DNA from: Cohnella laeviribosi DSM 21336
GTDB taxonomy: Bacteria > Bacillota > Bacilli > Paenibacillales > Paenibacillaceae
Direction: 5' to 3'
DNA: 64,000 nt
Assembly (NCBI RefSeq): GCF_000378425.1
Contig: NZ_KB899810.1
Coordinates: forward strand, 1-64,000
Under the pieces are notes generated by a model. It was not told the DNA's origin. It saw nothing but the letters and a program-made list of their open reading frames with translations, and searched no databases. Made by a program: the position numbers and the translations under genes. Position 1 is the first letter of the stretch. Each line of letters opens with the position of its first letter. Shown here in pieces: positions 29,480 to 34,785 of this stretch.

Positions 29480-29509
29480 TTGTAACCGACTTGCCGTTTC
29501 CGATATACT
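29480..29509 (+). promoter_or_regulatory. SigA-type promoter of the surface-polymer module
   Basis: TTGTAA at 29480-29485 and TATACT at 29504-29509 are separated by 18 bp. The predicted start is about 75 bp upstream of the GTG of the LTA-synthase-like gene. Confidence 0.6.
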
Positions 29510-29590: not shown

Positions 29591-31678
29591 GTGATTTCGC
29601 AATTGCAAACCGCCGCGCGCAGCGGCATTCGGCTTTCGCTTCGCGGCCTGCGAAAGTGGCCGTACGGGGGAGCCATGCTGTTTATCGCGGCGATGCTCTA
29701 CAAGCTCAATTGGCTGGACGGACAATTGAACGTCGGCGGGATGAATCCCTGGAAATGGACGGTCAATCTCGGCGCGATGGTGCTGGCGACCTTCTGGACC
29801 GTATGGCTCGGCCGCCGGACCCGCGCGGTCGTTCTCGCCTGCCTCGATATCGTCTTCTCGGCCGTCATGCTGGCCGATCTGGTTTATTTCCGCTATTTTA
29901 AAGATTTCATTTCCGTCCCCGTGCTGCTTCAGGCCGGACAAGTCGGCGAACTGGAAGACAGCATCTGGAATTTGATCCATCCGGGAGACTGGGTTCTGCT
30001 TGCCGACCTTCCGGCGGCCGTGGCGATCGCCGTCTTCGTCTGCTGGAGGCTTCGTCCCTCCAGGCTCGAACGGCTGGGACAACCGCGCCCCCGAAAATCG
30101 CTCAAGGCCGTCCTGCTGCGCCTTGCCCTCGGCGTCGCGCTGCTCGTCGGCGGCATCTACATGATCGCCGTGCCGGTCAATATTCAAAAGAACGGCTGGG
30201 CCAGAGGCCTGTTTGTCGGCAACTGGTGGAACGTTCCGATCTATAACGTGACGGGACTGTTCGGCTTCCACGGCTACGACGCTTACCGCTACGCAAAAGA
30301 GCACTGGTTCGGCAGCGGCCCGAGCCAAGCCGACATCCAGGAAGCGGAGGAATGGTTCGACAAGCGGGCCGCCCTGCAGAAGCAGGCCGAGACCGAGCCG
30401 ATGTTCGGCGCCTACAAGGGCAAAAACGTGCTGATCGTGCAGGCCGAGGCGTTCCAGACGTTTGTCATCGGCCAATCGGTGAACGGAAAGGAAATTACCC
30501 CGAATCTCAACAAGCTGATCGGCCAAAGCCTGTATTTTCCGAACTTCTATCATCAGACGGGACAAGGCCGCACGTCCGACGCGGACTTCCTGACGAACTG
30601 TTCCCTGCATCCGATGCCGACGGGCTCCGTGTTTATCCGGTTCGCGGACCATACCTACAACTGCCTCCCGTCGATCCTGAACGGGCAAGGATACGATACG
30701 ACCGTGCATCACGCATATGAAGGCAGCTTCTGGAACCGCAACAACATGTACCGCAATATGCAATACGCCGATTTTTACACGATCAAAGACTATACGAACG
30801 ACGAACCGCTTGGCTGGTCGCTCGGGGACAAATCGTTTTTCCGCCAGACGATCGACCAGTTGAAGCAGCGCGACAAATCGCCTTTTTACGCGTTTGCCAT
30901 CACGATTTCCGGGCATCACCCTTACAACCTGCCTTCCACGGCGACCCATTTCGACGCGGGACCGTTCGAAGGCACCACGTTCGGCGATTACCTGAAAGCG
31001 TCCCACTACGTCGACGAAGCGGTCGGCGAGCTCGTGCAGCGGCTGAAGGACGAAGGCTTGTGGGACAACACGATCCTCATGTTCTACGGCGACCACGACA
31101 ACTCGCTTTATGACGCGGAGCCCTACGAGAAATTGTTCGGTCGCAAGCTGTCCGACCAGGTGAAGGACGCCCTTCAGCGCAAAGTGCCGTTCTTCATTCA
31201 TTTTCCGAACGACGCGCATGCCGGCGTCATCGAAAAACCGGTCGGGCAAATCGACACGACGCCGACGGTGCTCCAACTGCTGGGCATCCCCGCCTCCGGG
31301 TACAAGCTGATGGGCGTCAGCATGCTGTCGGAAGCGGAAGCTCCGGTCGTCTTCCGGAACGGGGGCTTCGCGACGAAGCAAGTCTATTTCGTGCCTTCCG
31401 ACGACGGAATCTTGGAGCACGGGACGTGCTACCTGGCCGAAACCGGCGAACCGACCGAAATGTCCGCCTGCCAAGCCGGAGCCGAGGCGGCCCGGCTCGA
31501 ATTGAAGGTGTCCGACCTGGTCGTCGAGCACGATCTCATCCCGACGCTGTTCGACAGCGCGAACGGCGCAAGCGGCGATACGAGCGGCGGCAACGCGGGC
31601 GGAGAGAAGGCGAACGAAGAGAACCCGAGCGCGGCAAAAGAAGCCGGGTCGAACGCGGCGCCGCCGGCCGCGCCTTGA
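29591..31678 (+). CDS. LTA synthase-like membrane phosphotransferase (sulfatase fold)
   Basis: This 695-aa protein has five predicted TM helices (residues about 24-45, 52-72, 77-98, 136-155, 168-190) followed by a large extracellular alkaline-phosphatase/sulfatase domain. LtaS enzymes move glycerol phosphate from phosphatidylglycerol onto a growing polymer. The catalytic Thr context is conserved as HQTGQGRTSDADFLTN. LIVQAEAFQ carries the metal-binding Glu, TISGHHPYNLP the His region, and FYGDHDNSL the second metal site (DH). The C-terminal 45 residues are a low-complexity Gly/Ala/Glu tail, unusual for LtaS. The start is GTG with AAGGAAG upstream. It is first of three co-directional genes with an MBOAT and an SGNH protein, suggesting the polymer is acylated. 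The exact polymer is inference. Confidence 0.9.
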   Translation: MISQLQTAARSGIRLSLRGLRKWPYGGAMLFIAAMLYKLNWLDGQLNVGGMNPWKWTVNLGAMVLATFWTVWLGRRTRAVVLACLDIVFSAVMLADLVYFRYFKDFISVPVLLQAGQVGELEDSIWNLIHPGDWVLLADLPAAVAIAVFVCWRLRPSRLERLGQPRPRKSLKAVLLRLALGVALLVGGIYMIAVPVNIQKNGWARGLFVGNWWNVPIYNVTGLFGFHGYDAYRYAKEHWFGSGPSQADIQEAEEWFDKRAALQKQAETEPMFGAYKGKNVLIVQAEAFQTFVIGQSVNGKEITPNLNKLIGQSLYFPNFYHQTGQGRTSDADFLTNCSLHPMPTGSVFIRFADHTYNCLPSILNGQGYDTTVHHAYEGSFWNRNNMYRNMQYADFYTIKDYTNDEPLGWSLGDKSFFRQTIDQLKQRDKSPFYAFAITISGHHPYNLPSTATHFDAGPFEGTTFGDYLKASHYVDEAVGELVQRLKDEGLWDNTILMFYGDHDNSLYDAEPYEKLFGRKLSDQVKDALQRKVPFFIHFPNDAHAGVIEKPVGQIDTTPTVLQLLGIPASGYKLMGVSMLSEAEAPVVFRNGGFATKQVYFVPSDDGILEHGTCYLAETGEPTEMSACQAGAEAARLELKVSDLVVEHDLIPTLFDSANGASGDTSGGNAGGEKANEENPSAAKEAGSNAAPPAAP

Positions 31679-31813
31679 CGTGAAACCCTCTGGCAAAGTT
31701 TAAGAAAATAAGCATGGACGACGGGTGGACTTTTGTTTACCATTATTGAGGATGGTTCTGCAACTTTCAGCAGCAACCGACAAAAGGCAGCCGCCGAAAG
31801 AAAGAGGGACGTC

Positions 31814-33202
31814 ATGCTTTTTAATTCTTATCCGTTCATTTTCGTATTCTGGCCGGTGACGGCCGTCGTCTATTTCCTGCTGATCCGATTCAGATGGACG
31901 CTAGCGGCCAAAGGCTGGCTGGCGCTGGCATCGCTGTTTTTCTACGGATACTGGGACTACAAGTATGTTCCGCTCATTTTGGGCTCGATTCTGTTCAACT
32001 ATTTGACCGGACGCTGGATCGCGTCCGTTTCGGGCTCGGCCGTCGGCAAGCGCAAAGCGATTCTCGCCTTCGGCATCGTGGTCGACGTGGCGCTGCTCGG
32101 CTACTACAAATACGCGAACTTTTTCCTGGAAAACTTAAGCGAGCTTACCGGGCATCATTATCCGCTGCTGCAAATCGTATTGCCGCTTGGCATCAGCTTT
32201 TTCACGTTTACCCAAATCGCGTTTCTGGTCGACGCTTATCGCGGCAAAGTGCACGAAACGAACTTCGTGAGCTACGTGCTGTTCGTGACGTTTTTCCCTC
32301 ACCTGATCGCCGGCCCGATCCTTCACCACGGTGAAATGATGCCGCAGTTCGACCGGCTCCGCAATAAAGTATGGAACTGGTCGAACGCGGCCAAGGGACT
32401 GTTTTTGTTTTGCATCGGCCTGTTCAAAAAGGTGGTCATCGCCGACACGTTCGCCATCTACGCCAACGACGGCTTCAAGTCGGCGACTCAATTTACGGAC
32501 TCGTGGGTAGCGTCGCTCTCGTATACGCTTCAGCTCTATTTCGATTTCAGCGGCTATACGGACATGGCCATCGGGATCGCCCTGTTTTTCAATATCGTGC
32601 TGCCGCAAAACTTCAATTCGCCGTACAAGGCGGTCTCGATTACCGATTTCTGGAGACGGTGGCATATGACGCTCAGCCGCTGGCTGCGCGATTACATCTA
32701 CATACCGCTCGGAGGCAACCGGAAAGGCTTCGCCCGGGCCAACGTCAACCTGATCATCGTCTTTTTCATAGGCGGCTTGTGGCACGGCGCCGGCTGGACC
32801 TTTATTTTGTGGGGACTTTTGCACGGTTTCGGACAAGCGCTGCAGCGCGTCTGGACGCGGCGGGGCCGTCCGCTGCCCAAGTGGCTGGCCATCGCGGTTA
32901 CGTTCCTGTTCGTGAACGTGACCTGGGTGTTCTTCCGGGCGGAGAACGTCGATCAGGCGCTCCGCATTCTCAAAGGCATGGCGGGAATGAACGGCCTCGG
33001 CCTGGACCAGCTTTCCAGCTTCGTCTTCCCGATTTTACTGTTCGCCGTCTTTCTGCCGATCGTCTTCTTCGCGAAGAACTCGTCCGAACGGGCGGAAGCC
33101 TTCCGCCCGAGCGTCAAGACCGCGCTGGGGATGGCGGTGCTGTTCATCGTCTCGCTGCTCTATTTGAATCGCATCAGCGAGTTCCTGTATTTCAATTTCT
33201 AG
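31814..33202 (+). CDS. MBOAT-family O-acyltransferase (AlgI/DltB-like)
   Basis: This 462-aa polytopic membrane protein would move acyl groups across or at the membrane to an extracellular acceptor. The N-terminus MLFNSYPFIFVFWPVTAVVY is typical of AlgI/PatA proteins. The MBOAT core is visible as ISDFWRRWHMTLSRW-like SITDFWRRWHMTLSRW with His284, DYIYIPLGGNRKG, and the catalytic His324 in GGLWHGAGW. YFDFSGYTDMAIG is the second family block. AGAGGGA precedes the ATG at 31814; a longer frame to 31733 lacks support. It ends 19 bp before the SGNH gene. In alginate, peptidoglycan and teichoic-acid systems an MBOAT works with an SGNH partner exactly as arranged here. Confidence 0.93.
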   Translation: MLFNSYPFIFVFWPVTAVVYFLLIRFRWTLAAKGWLALASLFFYGYWDYKYVPLILGSILFNYLTGRWIASVSGSAVGKRKAILAFGIVVDVALLGYYKYANFFLENLSELTGHHYPLLQIVLPLGISFFTFTQIAFLVDAYRGKVHETNFVSYVLFVTFFPHLIAGPILHHGEMMPQFDRLRNKVWNWSNAAKGLFLFCIGLFKKVVIADTFAIYANDGFKSATQFTDSWVASLSYTLQLYFDFSGYTDMAIGIALFFNIVLPQNFNSPYKAVSITDFWRRWHMTLSRWLRDYIYIPLGGNRKGFARANVNLIIVFFIGGLWHGAGWTFILWGLLHGFGQALQRVWTRRGRPLPKWLAIAVTFLFVNVTWVFFRAENVDQALRILKGMAGMNGLGLDQLSSFVFPILLFAVFLPIVFFAKNSSERAEAFRPSVKTALGMAVLFIVSLLYLNRISEFLYFNF

Positions 33203-33221
33203 GAAAGGCGTGACCACTTCG

Positions 33222-34691
33222 ATGACTTCATCGTCCAACGCTATGCTGCAAACGAATCGAAGCGTCCCCAAGCGGGTCCGCGCCAGACGTTTTTGTCTTT
33301 CGTTTGTGTTCTATTCCATTATTGTAGCCGTTGCGGTCGCACTGCTTACCGTATGGATCGACCCGCTGCAGTTTTACCATAAAGCGACGTGGTACAACGC
33401 CCGGTTCTCGACCGAAGAACGGTACCAGAATCCGGGTCTGGCCAAAAACTTCGATTACGATACCATCATTATCGGAACCTCGATGACCGAAAATTTCGTT
33501 CCGTCCCAAGTCGGCGAGCAATTGGGCGGAAAAGTGATGAAGCTGTCGATGGAGGGCTCGATCTCGGAAGAGCATTACCAAATGGCCCGCCTCGCGCTGA
33601 GCACCGGCAAGGTCAAAAAGGTGCTGTGGGGGCTCGATTATTTTTCGCTGAAAAGCAAGGCGGCCGACAGCAACTACGAGCTGCCCAAATACATGTACGA
33701 CGACAAGTGGTGGAACGATTACCCGTATTGGTTCAACTACACCGTATACGAGCAGTTTTTCAAAAGCGTCATGCTGCAGCTCAAAGGCACGCCGAAACAG
33801 AACCTCGACTATTTGAGCAACTGGAACTGGATGGTCACTTTCGGCAAGGAGCGGGTGGCCAAAGCCTACGACAAGGCGAACGCGGAGGAAGGCTACTTCG
33901 GGCTGGACGAAGAGGCGCCGGAATCGCTCAAGGTCAACTTCGACCATAATATTCTGTCGCTGGTCAAGGACCACCCGGACGTGGAGTTCATTTTCTACTA
34001 TCCGCCTTACAGCGTGCTGCGGCAGGTCGTCTGGTACAACACGAATCCGACCCGGTTCGGCTACCAGATCGAAATGCGCAAATGGATGTACGAGCAATTC
34101 GCCCAATATCCGAACGTCAAGCTGTACGATTTCCAAACGGCGGATTGGACGTACGATCTGGACTTGTACAAGGACTTGTCCCACCACCATATGGACGTCA
34201 ACAAGTGGATCGCCGAAGCGATCGGCAAGGACGATTCCAAGTACCGGGTGACGGACGACAACGTGGATGCGCTGAACGACAGCCTGATCGCGGCCGCGGA
34301 GAACGCCGTCATGACCCCGGAATACGAAGTGGTGAATTTCTCCACGCTGCTGAGCGGCCAAAAGCACGTCTTCACCGGACGGTTGCTCCAGGAGGACGGC
34401 AAGGACCTGCTCGTGCCGGTCAAGCAGCTCGCCTCCGAGCTGGGCGCGGAGCTGACGTGGGACCAGGCGACGAAGACCGCTGTCTTAAAGCGCGGGGATC
34501 GCGAGCTGAAGCTGACGATGGGCAGCACCGACGCGGTCTCCTCCGGCCAAACCGTCAAGCTGGAATACGCGCCGCGGCTGATCGGCGGCACGTCGCTTGT
34601 CCCGCTCGGCTTCGCCGCCGGGGAACTGGGCTACAAGACCGAGCTTTCGCAGCTTGAGGACGGAACGACGCAGCTTTCGATAACCGAATAG
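33222..34691 (+). CDS. SGNH/DltD-AlgX-like acyltransfer partner fused to a CuAO-like N-terminal domain
   Basis: This 489-aa protein has a basic N-terminus and one TM or signal anchor at residues about 26-46, so the rest is extracellular. An SGNH-like domain follows: DTIIIGTSMTENFVPSQ places the nucleophile at Ser87 (GTSMTEN block I), and KDLSHHHMDVNKWI provides the Asp318/His321-323 pair of block V. Residues about 385-489 match a copper-amine-oxidase-like N-terminal domain (LLVPVKQLASELGAELTWD and GTSLVPLGFAAGELG), common on Paenibacillus surface proteins. That fusion is unusual. GTG at 33210 is an alternative start, but the ribosome site AGGAAAGG is nearly adjacent to it. A strong terminator follows. 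It is probably the final acyltransferase or acceptor-binding partner of the MBOAT protein. Confidence 0.82.
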   Translation: MTSSSNAMLQTNRSVPKRVRARRFCLSFVFYSIIVAVAVALLTVWIDPLQFYHKATWYNARFSTEERYQNPGLAKNFDYDTIIIGTSMTENFVPSQVGEQLGGKVMKLSMEGSISEEHYQMARLALSTGKVKKVLWGLDYFSLKSKAADSNYELPKYMYDDKWWNDYPYWFNYTVYEQFFKSVMLQLKGTPKQNLDYLSNWNWMVTFGKERVAKAYDKANAEEGYFGLDEEAPESLKVNFDHNILSLVKDHPDVEFIFYYPPYSVLRQVVWYNTNPTRFGYQIEMRKWMYEQFAQYPNVKLYDFQTADWTYDLDLYKDLSHHHMDVNKWIAEAIGKDDSKYRVTDDNVDALNDSLIAAAENAVMTPEYEVVNFSTLLSGQKHVFTGRLLQEDGKDLLVPVKQLASELGAELTWDQATKTAVLKRGDRELKLTMGSTDAVSSGQTVKLEYAPRLIGGTSLVPLGFAAGELGYKTELSQLEDGTTQLSITE

Positions 34692-34704
34692 GGTCCGAAC
34701 CGCC

Positions 34705-34758
34705 AAAAAGGCTGTCCTTGCAAAACGCGTCGAGCGTTTTGCGCAAGGACAGCCTTTT
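34705..34758. terminator. Bidirectional terminator
   Basis: AAAAAGGCTGTCCTTGC and AACGC pair with GCGTT and GCAAGGACAGCCTTTT, giving a stem of more than 20 bp with A and T runs on either side. It closes the three-gene module on the plus strand and the DUF1450 operon on the minus strand. Confidence 0.9.
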
Positions 34759-34785
34759 ATGGCAAATAGCCGTAGAATGGCGGGA

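Follow-up and report, generated by a model that had tools for sequence, protein, structure and literature searches.

MBOAT proteins that use acetyl-CoA together with an SGNH partner, such as PatA, carry FxYxxF as their acyl-shuttle motif (PMC12148441). PatA1 and PatA2 of Bacillus anthracis, acting with PatB1, are reported in the available excerpt of a review (PMC7759979) to O-acetylate the secondary wall polysaccharide. The lipoteichoic acid (LTA) synthase LtaS is treated in PMC4192460 and an MBOAT combined with a lipase of the SGNH type, in a different context, in PMC12419801, each as far as the available excerpts go. The titles and abstract openings of open-licence PMC papers show no system joining LtaS with an MBOAT/SGNH pair. 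Such a set of genes is found in Cohnella laeviribosi DSM 21336, at positions 29591 to 34691 of a stretch of 64,000 nucleotides analyzed here as the window (contig NZ_KB899810.1, positions 1 to 64,000).

The two distal genes, at 31814 to 34691, are best read, with a probability of about 0.7, as an acyl-CoA-dependent two-protein envelope O-acyltransferase of the PatA/PatB type, established downstream of LtaS, a core gene. This reading draws on sequences, conserved residues, the shuttle motif, distribution, synteny, trees, and hairpins. LtaS and the pair are separate units and neighbors in one small branch of Cohnella. The initial annotation had proposed a three-gene surface-polymer acylation module with LtaS as its dedicated synthase; the open reading frames confirm its three co-oriented genes within the span, and all three appear functional. 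The features are as follows:

29480..29509, plus strand: promoter-like element upstream of LtaS, TTGTAA-18-TATACT (scan 9/12, weak alone; TATACT in 15/16 upstream regions)
29591..31678, plus strand: LtaS-type glycerophosphate transferase, 695 residues, GTG start, genus core gene (profile, structure-sequence, and genus comparisons)
31679..31813, plus strand: LtaS-MBOAT gap, 135 nucleotides, terminator not found here (present in 6/8 genomes sharing the arrangement)
31814..33202, plus strand: predicted MBOAT O-acyltransferase, 462 residues, start ATG 31814, H284 and H324 (Pfam, alignment, fold comparison)
33182..33199, plus strand: codons of FLYFNF, the C-terminal FxYxxF acyl-shuttle motif with Tyr459 (sequence; motif according to PMC12148441)
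33210..34691, plus strand: predicted SGNH acyltransferase, S91 and D322/H325, start GTG 33210 or ATG 33222 (alignment, model)
34398..34643, plus strand: Cu_amine_oxidN1 stalk domain at the C-terminal end of the SGNH protein, residues 397-478 (Pfam, model)
34702..34763, no strand assigned: strong hairpin between the SGNH gene and DUF1450, which converges on it; probably a terminator in both directions (folding)

The second protein contains an MBOAT domain (Pfam, E 5e-34), the one match to PF03062 in the whole genome. Its conserved residues His284 and His324 had been named correctly, counted from ATG 31814, and are invariant in 47/47 aligned rows. The C-terminal end reads FLYFNF, and the F.Y..F pattern recurs in 74 of 75 MBOATs compared. 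The conserved histidine and the C-terminal FxYxxF place the protein among the predicted MBOATs of the acyl-CoA (PatAB-like) type. DltB is the closest solved structure, and the score of 167.8 bits lies below the 375-bit cut-off of the DltB equivalog.

The SGNH protein shows the Ser/Asp/His set of a putative PatAB-like partner. The residues given in the initial annotation as Ser87 and Asp318/His are present, with the numbering corrected to S91 and D322-x-x-H325 from GTG 33210, and S91, D322, and H325 are invariant in 59/59 aligned rows. The model contains an N-terminal helix (residues 21-50), and the sole Pfam match is the C-terminal Cu_amine_oxidN1 stalk, a domain that may tether the enzyme to the wall. 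The SGNH half of the window protein gives no Pfam or NCBIfam match and only chance-like phmmer matches to the PDB (E of at least 0.24). Its longest fold alignments are with DltD; PatB1 and AlgX are not among the 50 matches listed for the fold, which excludes neither. The SGNH protein of the pair in Cohnella sp. JJ-181 (L086 8010-9122) comprises 371 residues with no Pfam match and no stalk detected; in the genome search, the match to this same pair (G117) carries one internal stop.

The first protein contains a Sulfatase domain (Pfam, E 4e-44) and can be aligned with Staphylococcus aureus LtaS (2w5q, E 5e-70), which bears out its reading as an LtaS-type phosphotransferase with a catalytic threonine, here within GQGRTSDAD. 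Its residues E286, T328, W381, R383, H442, D501, and H502, taken, in part from the aligned 2w5q sequence, to be the metal, nucleophile, and glycerophosphate residues, are identical in all 35 genus sequences compared (of 37). The score of 380.5 bits misses the cut-off of the NCBIfam LTA synthase equivalog (970 bits). Two further LtaS-like paralogues in the same genome (L042 4930-6795 and L043 4845-6758) score 345.1 and 344.1 bits with the LTA synthase model. The LtaS-like protein ends in a Gly/Ala/Glu-rich tail of ∼35 residues (window 31570-31675), and many genus matches stop near query residue 655. The LtaS gene before the pair is the ordinary core LTA synthase gene of Cohnella.

The separation of LtaS from the pair is apparent in their distributions. 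The family sample comprises 197 genomes, with cut-offs of E 1e-60 for LtaS, 1e-15 for SGNH, and 1e-30 for MBOAT (distant kin included). LtaS is found in 197/197 genomes, SGNH in 59, and MBOAT in 123; the SGNH gene adjoins an MBOAT gene in 58 of the 59, with coordinates judged by eye, and in the remaining genome (G136) the MBOAT lies on another contig. Among the 37 Cohnella genomes, LtaS is present in all, the pair in 9, and the pair beside LtaS in 8, with the pair of G117 located elsewhere; all 28 pair-free genomes, G052 included, retain LtaS. A second set of 80 named SGNH loci, with flanks of up to 8 kb on each side (shorter at contig ends), overlaps the family sample, so that the counts are not additive. 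MBOAT is adjacent in 74 of these loci, and 68 of the 74 show no LtaS homologue within the examined flank; the 6 with one are all Cohnella. In the other 6 loci, each from one of these six Cohnella strains, the SGNH gene stands alone; L071 and L072 among them have shorter upstream flanks. Co-occurrence and adjacency of the three genes across relatives, the check put forward in the initial annotation, thus fail as a general rule. Paenibacillus selenitireducens contains two MBOAT-SGNH pairs in one strain (L049 and L056).

Gene order agrees with this picture. The order O-methyltransferase-LtaS-DUF1450 is kept in 17/17 stretches examined, out of the 29 genus genomes without an adjacent pair, with spacings between the LtaS and DUF1450 matches of 77 to 139 bases in 16 and 641 bases in one. 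The pair therefore occupies the site at which LtaS and DUF1450 are direct neighbors in these genomes. DUF1450 follows the pair directly in the window, L045, L047, and L091 and ∼2 kb further on in L046; it is not detected after the L085/L143 pair, where the following block is present, and L048/L144 end at the contig end. The SGNH proteins of the eight genomes with all three genes together (the triad genomes) form one clade (100/98), as do their MBOATs (99). Single clades within a neighborhood whose order is conserved anyway point to one acquisition, so that the eight genomes are not independent witnesses.

The SigA promoter proposed earlier has mixed standing: TTGTAA-18-TATACT at 29480 is barely above chance (5 matches in the region on both strands against 2.9 expected), yet the TATACT box recurs upstream of LtaS in 15/16 genus genomes compared, including 8/8 without an adjacent pair; the remaining genome, G178, is unaligned there. 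The LtaS-MBOAT gap measures 135 to 233 nucleotides across the triad genomes. A stricter terminator scan with zero mismatches finds nothing in any of the eight gaps; a folding scan allowing bulges, run after imperfect hairpins had been spotted by eye, gives hairpins with T runs in six (-16 to -23 kcal/mol, a value matched by 0 to 2 of 60 shuffles). Neither the window gap (-4.3; 5/60 shuffles) nor that of the nearest relative, G197 (-2.7; 21/60), contains a terminator hairpin with a T run, so that read-through and cotranscription are possible there. The strong terminator claimed after the SGNH gene corresponds to a very strong hairpin (dG -43.5, z -9.35) with a short U run, and the folding terminator scan misses it. 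The proposal of a single three-gene unit is not confirmed, given the 135-nucleotide gap and the terminator-like hairpin in six of the eight genomes of the same arrangement; in most of this lineage, the pair is probably transcribed on its own. Nor does LtaS appear as a dedicated synthase, since the gene, its place, and its TATACT box are kept without the pair. The link of LtaS to the pair is lineage specific and unproven.

A second SGNH-stalk gene with the same active residues lies elsewhere in the genome (G000:C22:55048-56463; L041 7965-9503); a search of the 18-kb stretch there finds no MBOAT. This lone SGNH gene is present in 8/8 triad genomes and in 0/29 other genomes of the genus. At E 1e-40, six of the eight lack a further MBOAT; in G101 and G178 a distant one is present. 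A plain duplication of the triad SGNH gene is rejected, as the triad genes form one clade (100/98) and the lone genes another (100/100), which groups beside a Paenibacillus taihuensis group (98/92). The second SGNH protein probably receives its acyl groups from the same MBOAT. Among metagenome-assembled genomes of Clostridia, L115-L120 and L122-L124 contain arrays of one MBOAT gene with two or three SGNH genes.

The genome G052 is informative in this respect. It is nested among the triad genomes in the LtaS tree (96/94 with G109), and a tree of five flanking genes places it on one side with all triad loci used (99.8/100), with 82/65 for the exact sister position. G052 contains no pair in its LtaS-DUF1450 gap and no SGNH match between the PIN/TRAM gene and pssA. 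Joint loss of the pair and the lone SGNH gene is the simplest reading. The lone SGNH gene is tied to the MBOAT better than LtaS is, though by one event.

In the proposed mechanism, cytoplasmic acyl-CoA would donate the acyl group, with acetyl as the likeliest, and the MBOAT would take it up with the help of His324 and load it onto Tyr459 in its own C-terminal FLYFNF. From the acyl-tyrosine, the acyl group would then move to Ser91 on the SGNH protein, which is predicted to be anchored in the membrane and would esterify a hydroxyl group on an extracellular envelope polymer; the second SGNH protein, encoded at its separate locus, would probably be supplied by the same MBOAT. The pair would have entered the gap behind LtaS, ahead of the convergent DUF1450 block, in one Cohnella lineage.

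Several points weigh against this reading. Co-orientation behind LtaS and the window gap without a terminator still permit a shared transcript and a link in function. That G052 lacks both loci counts as a single event, the sister support is moderate, and both trees come from one neighborhood. The C-terminal motif of the MBOAT is modeled at low confidence (pLDDT ∼31), and the model does not resolve the shuttle motif. The top fold matches of the SGNH protein by Z are esterases (13.3 over 182 residues), and the fold therefore does not pick out a transferase. The catalysis is predicted from sequence.

The donor and the acceptor of the acyl group allow several alternatives. A Dlt-type system is rejected, with DltD over the cut-off in 0/197 family genomes (one weak match) and DltA in 0/37 genus genomes (weaker matches in 37/37). 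The earlier remark that DltA and DltC are missing can thus be extended for DltA to the genus, and likewise for DltD to the family; no DltC search was made. Its assignment of an MBOAT/SGNH acylation logic with a non-Dlt donor gains support from the sole PF03062 match, FLYFNF, and DltA and DltD staying below the cut-off. Lipoprotein N-acetylation, which relies on LhaT and a lipid carrier according to the available part of PMC12345273, is rejected as well. For the acceptor, the initial annotation favored the glycerophosphate polymer of the adjoining LtaS, which would mean a Dlt-independent acylation of LTA. This reading, the highest rated of the acceptors by a small margin, is less likely than not. 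Adjacency and co-orientation with LtaS in 8/9 pair-bearing genus genomes and the terminator-free window gap speak for it, as do the solved relatives (DltB for the MBOAT, DltD for the longest SGNH alignments), which both act on LTA, and the consideration that LTA would otherwise be without D-alanine ester, with DltA (in the genus) and DltD not over the cut-off. The adjacency goes back, however, to a single origin in an order-conserved neighborhood; 68/74 pair loci lack an LtaS homologue in the examined flank, six of eight gaps contain a terminator-like hairpin, and LtaS is retained in the 28 pair-free genus genomes, including G052.

O-acetylation of a secondary cell wall polysaccharide, as excerpted for B. 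anthracis, a member of the Bacillales, from PMC7759979, is slightly more doubtful than LTA, and some other polymer deserves the same rating. A relative in Bacillus pinisoli lies within a glycan cluster that also encodes NeuB and UDP-GlcNAc 2-epimerase, and the SGNH protein has a domain that could anchor it in the wall; neither in the window nor at the remaining Cohnella triad loci does a glycan cluster adjoin the pair, however, and the SGNH family occurs in just 59/197 family genomes. Peptidoglycan O-acetylation as in PatA/PatB, with the proximity of LtaS accidental, is unlikely, although wall genes accompany distant relatives: the Clostridia array L117 (SGNH-SGNH-MBOAT-SGNH, the one array sampled by Pfam) has genes for an L,D-transpeptidase, a VanY carboxypeptidase, and an HtrA-like protease next to it, the VanY and HtrA-like clusters (c12 and c15) recur in 9 and 8 loci, and an Alkalihalophilus pair adjoins an NlpC/P60 wall-hydrolase gene. 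Such a context is not seen in the near Paenibacillaceae relatives, few of whose neighbors are identified. The genome of C. laeviribosi already has an OatA-like AT3-SGNH protein (L181 2723-4684), whose SGNH half does not reach the Pfam cut-offs; 36/37 genus genomes have AT3 matches, with counts that do not follow the pair.

As enzymes, the two belong to a known kind, and the proposed arrangement of one MBOAT with two SGNH proteins is the more testable novelty. Even if LTA is not the substrate, whether a single MBOAT can serve two SGNH transferases could be tested naturally at this locus. If LTA is the substrate, its esterification would be Dlt independent in a family without DltD over the cut-off, and the reading of D-alanine-free teichoic acids would change. 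A bolder proposal, which must be called improbable, is that in this Dlt-less lineage the pair, captured behind LtaS, O-acylates LTA as a chemically distinct substitute for D-alanine while one MBOAT feeds two SGNH proteins of separate descent, acting on two different polymers of the envelope. The SGNH family, present in 59/197 family genomes, has in the window a member whose SGNH half is without a Pfam or NCBIfam match.

Among the described systems, the Gram-negative peptidoglycan O-acetyltransferase PatA/PatB resembles the pair in its MBOAT with a C-terminal FxYxxF and its separate SGNH protein, a likeness of motif and layout without direct sequence comparison; the stalk of the SGNH protein and the LtaS neighbor in one Cohnella clade are differences. 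PatA1/PatA2-PatB1 of B. anthracis is likened by its excerpted description and not by sequence, as an MBOAT/SGNH system of the Bacillales, and differs in that wall-polysaccharide genes are not found at this locus. The LtaS-like protein retains the catalytic threonine of the LTA synthase, together with the motif residues aligned for metal and glycerophosphate, but scores 380.5 against the 970 bits of the equivalog, with its two own-genome paralogues at 345 and 344. DltB/DltX/DltD shares with the pair the DltB-like MBOAT fold, the DltD-like SGNH alignment, a tyrosine shuttle motif, and, in the clade, an LTA synthase nearby. In contrast to Dlt, the shuttle motif is here fused to the MBOAT, which scores 167.8 against 375 bits, and DltA (0/37) and DltD (0/197) do not accompany the pair over the cut-off.

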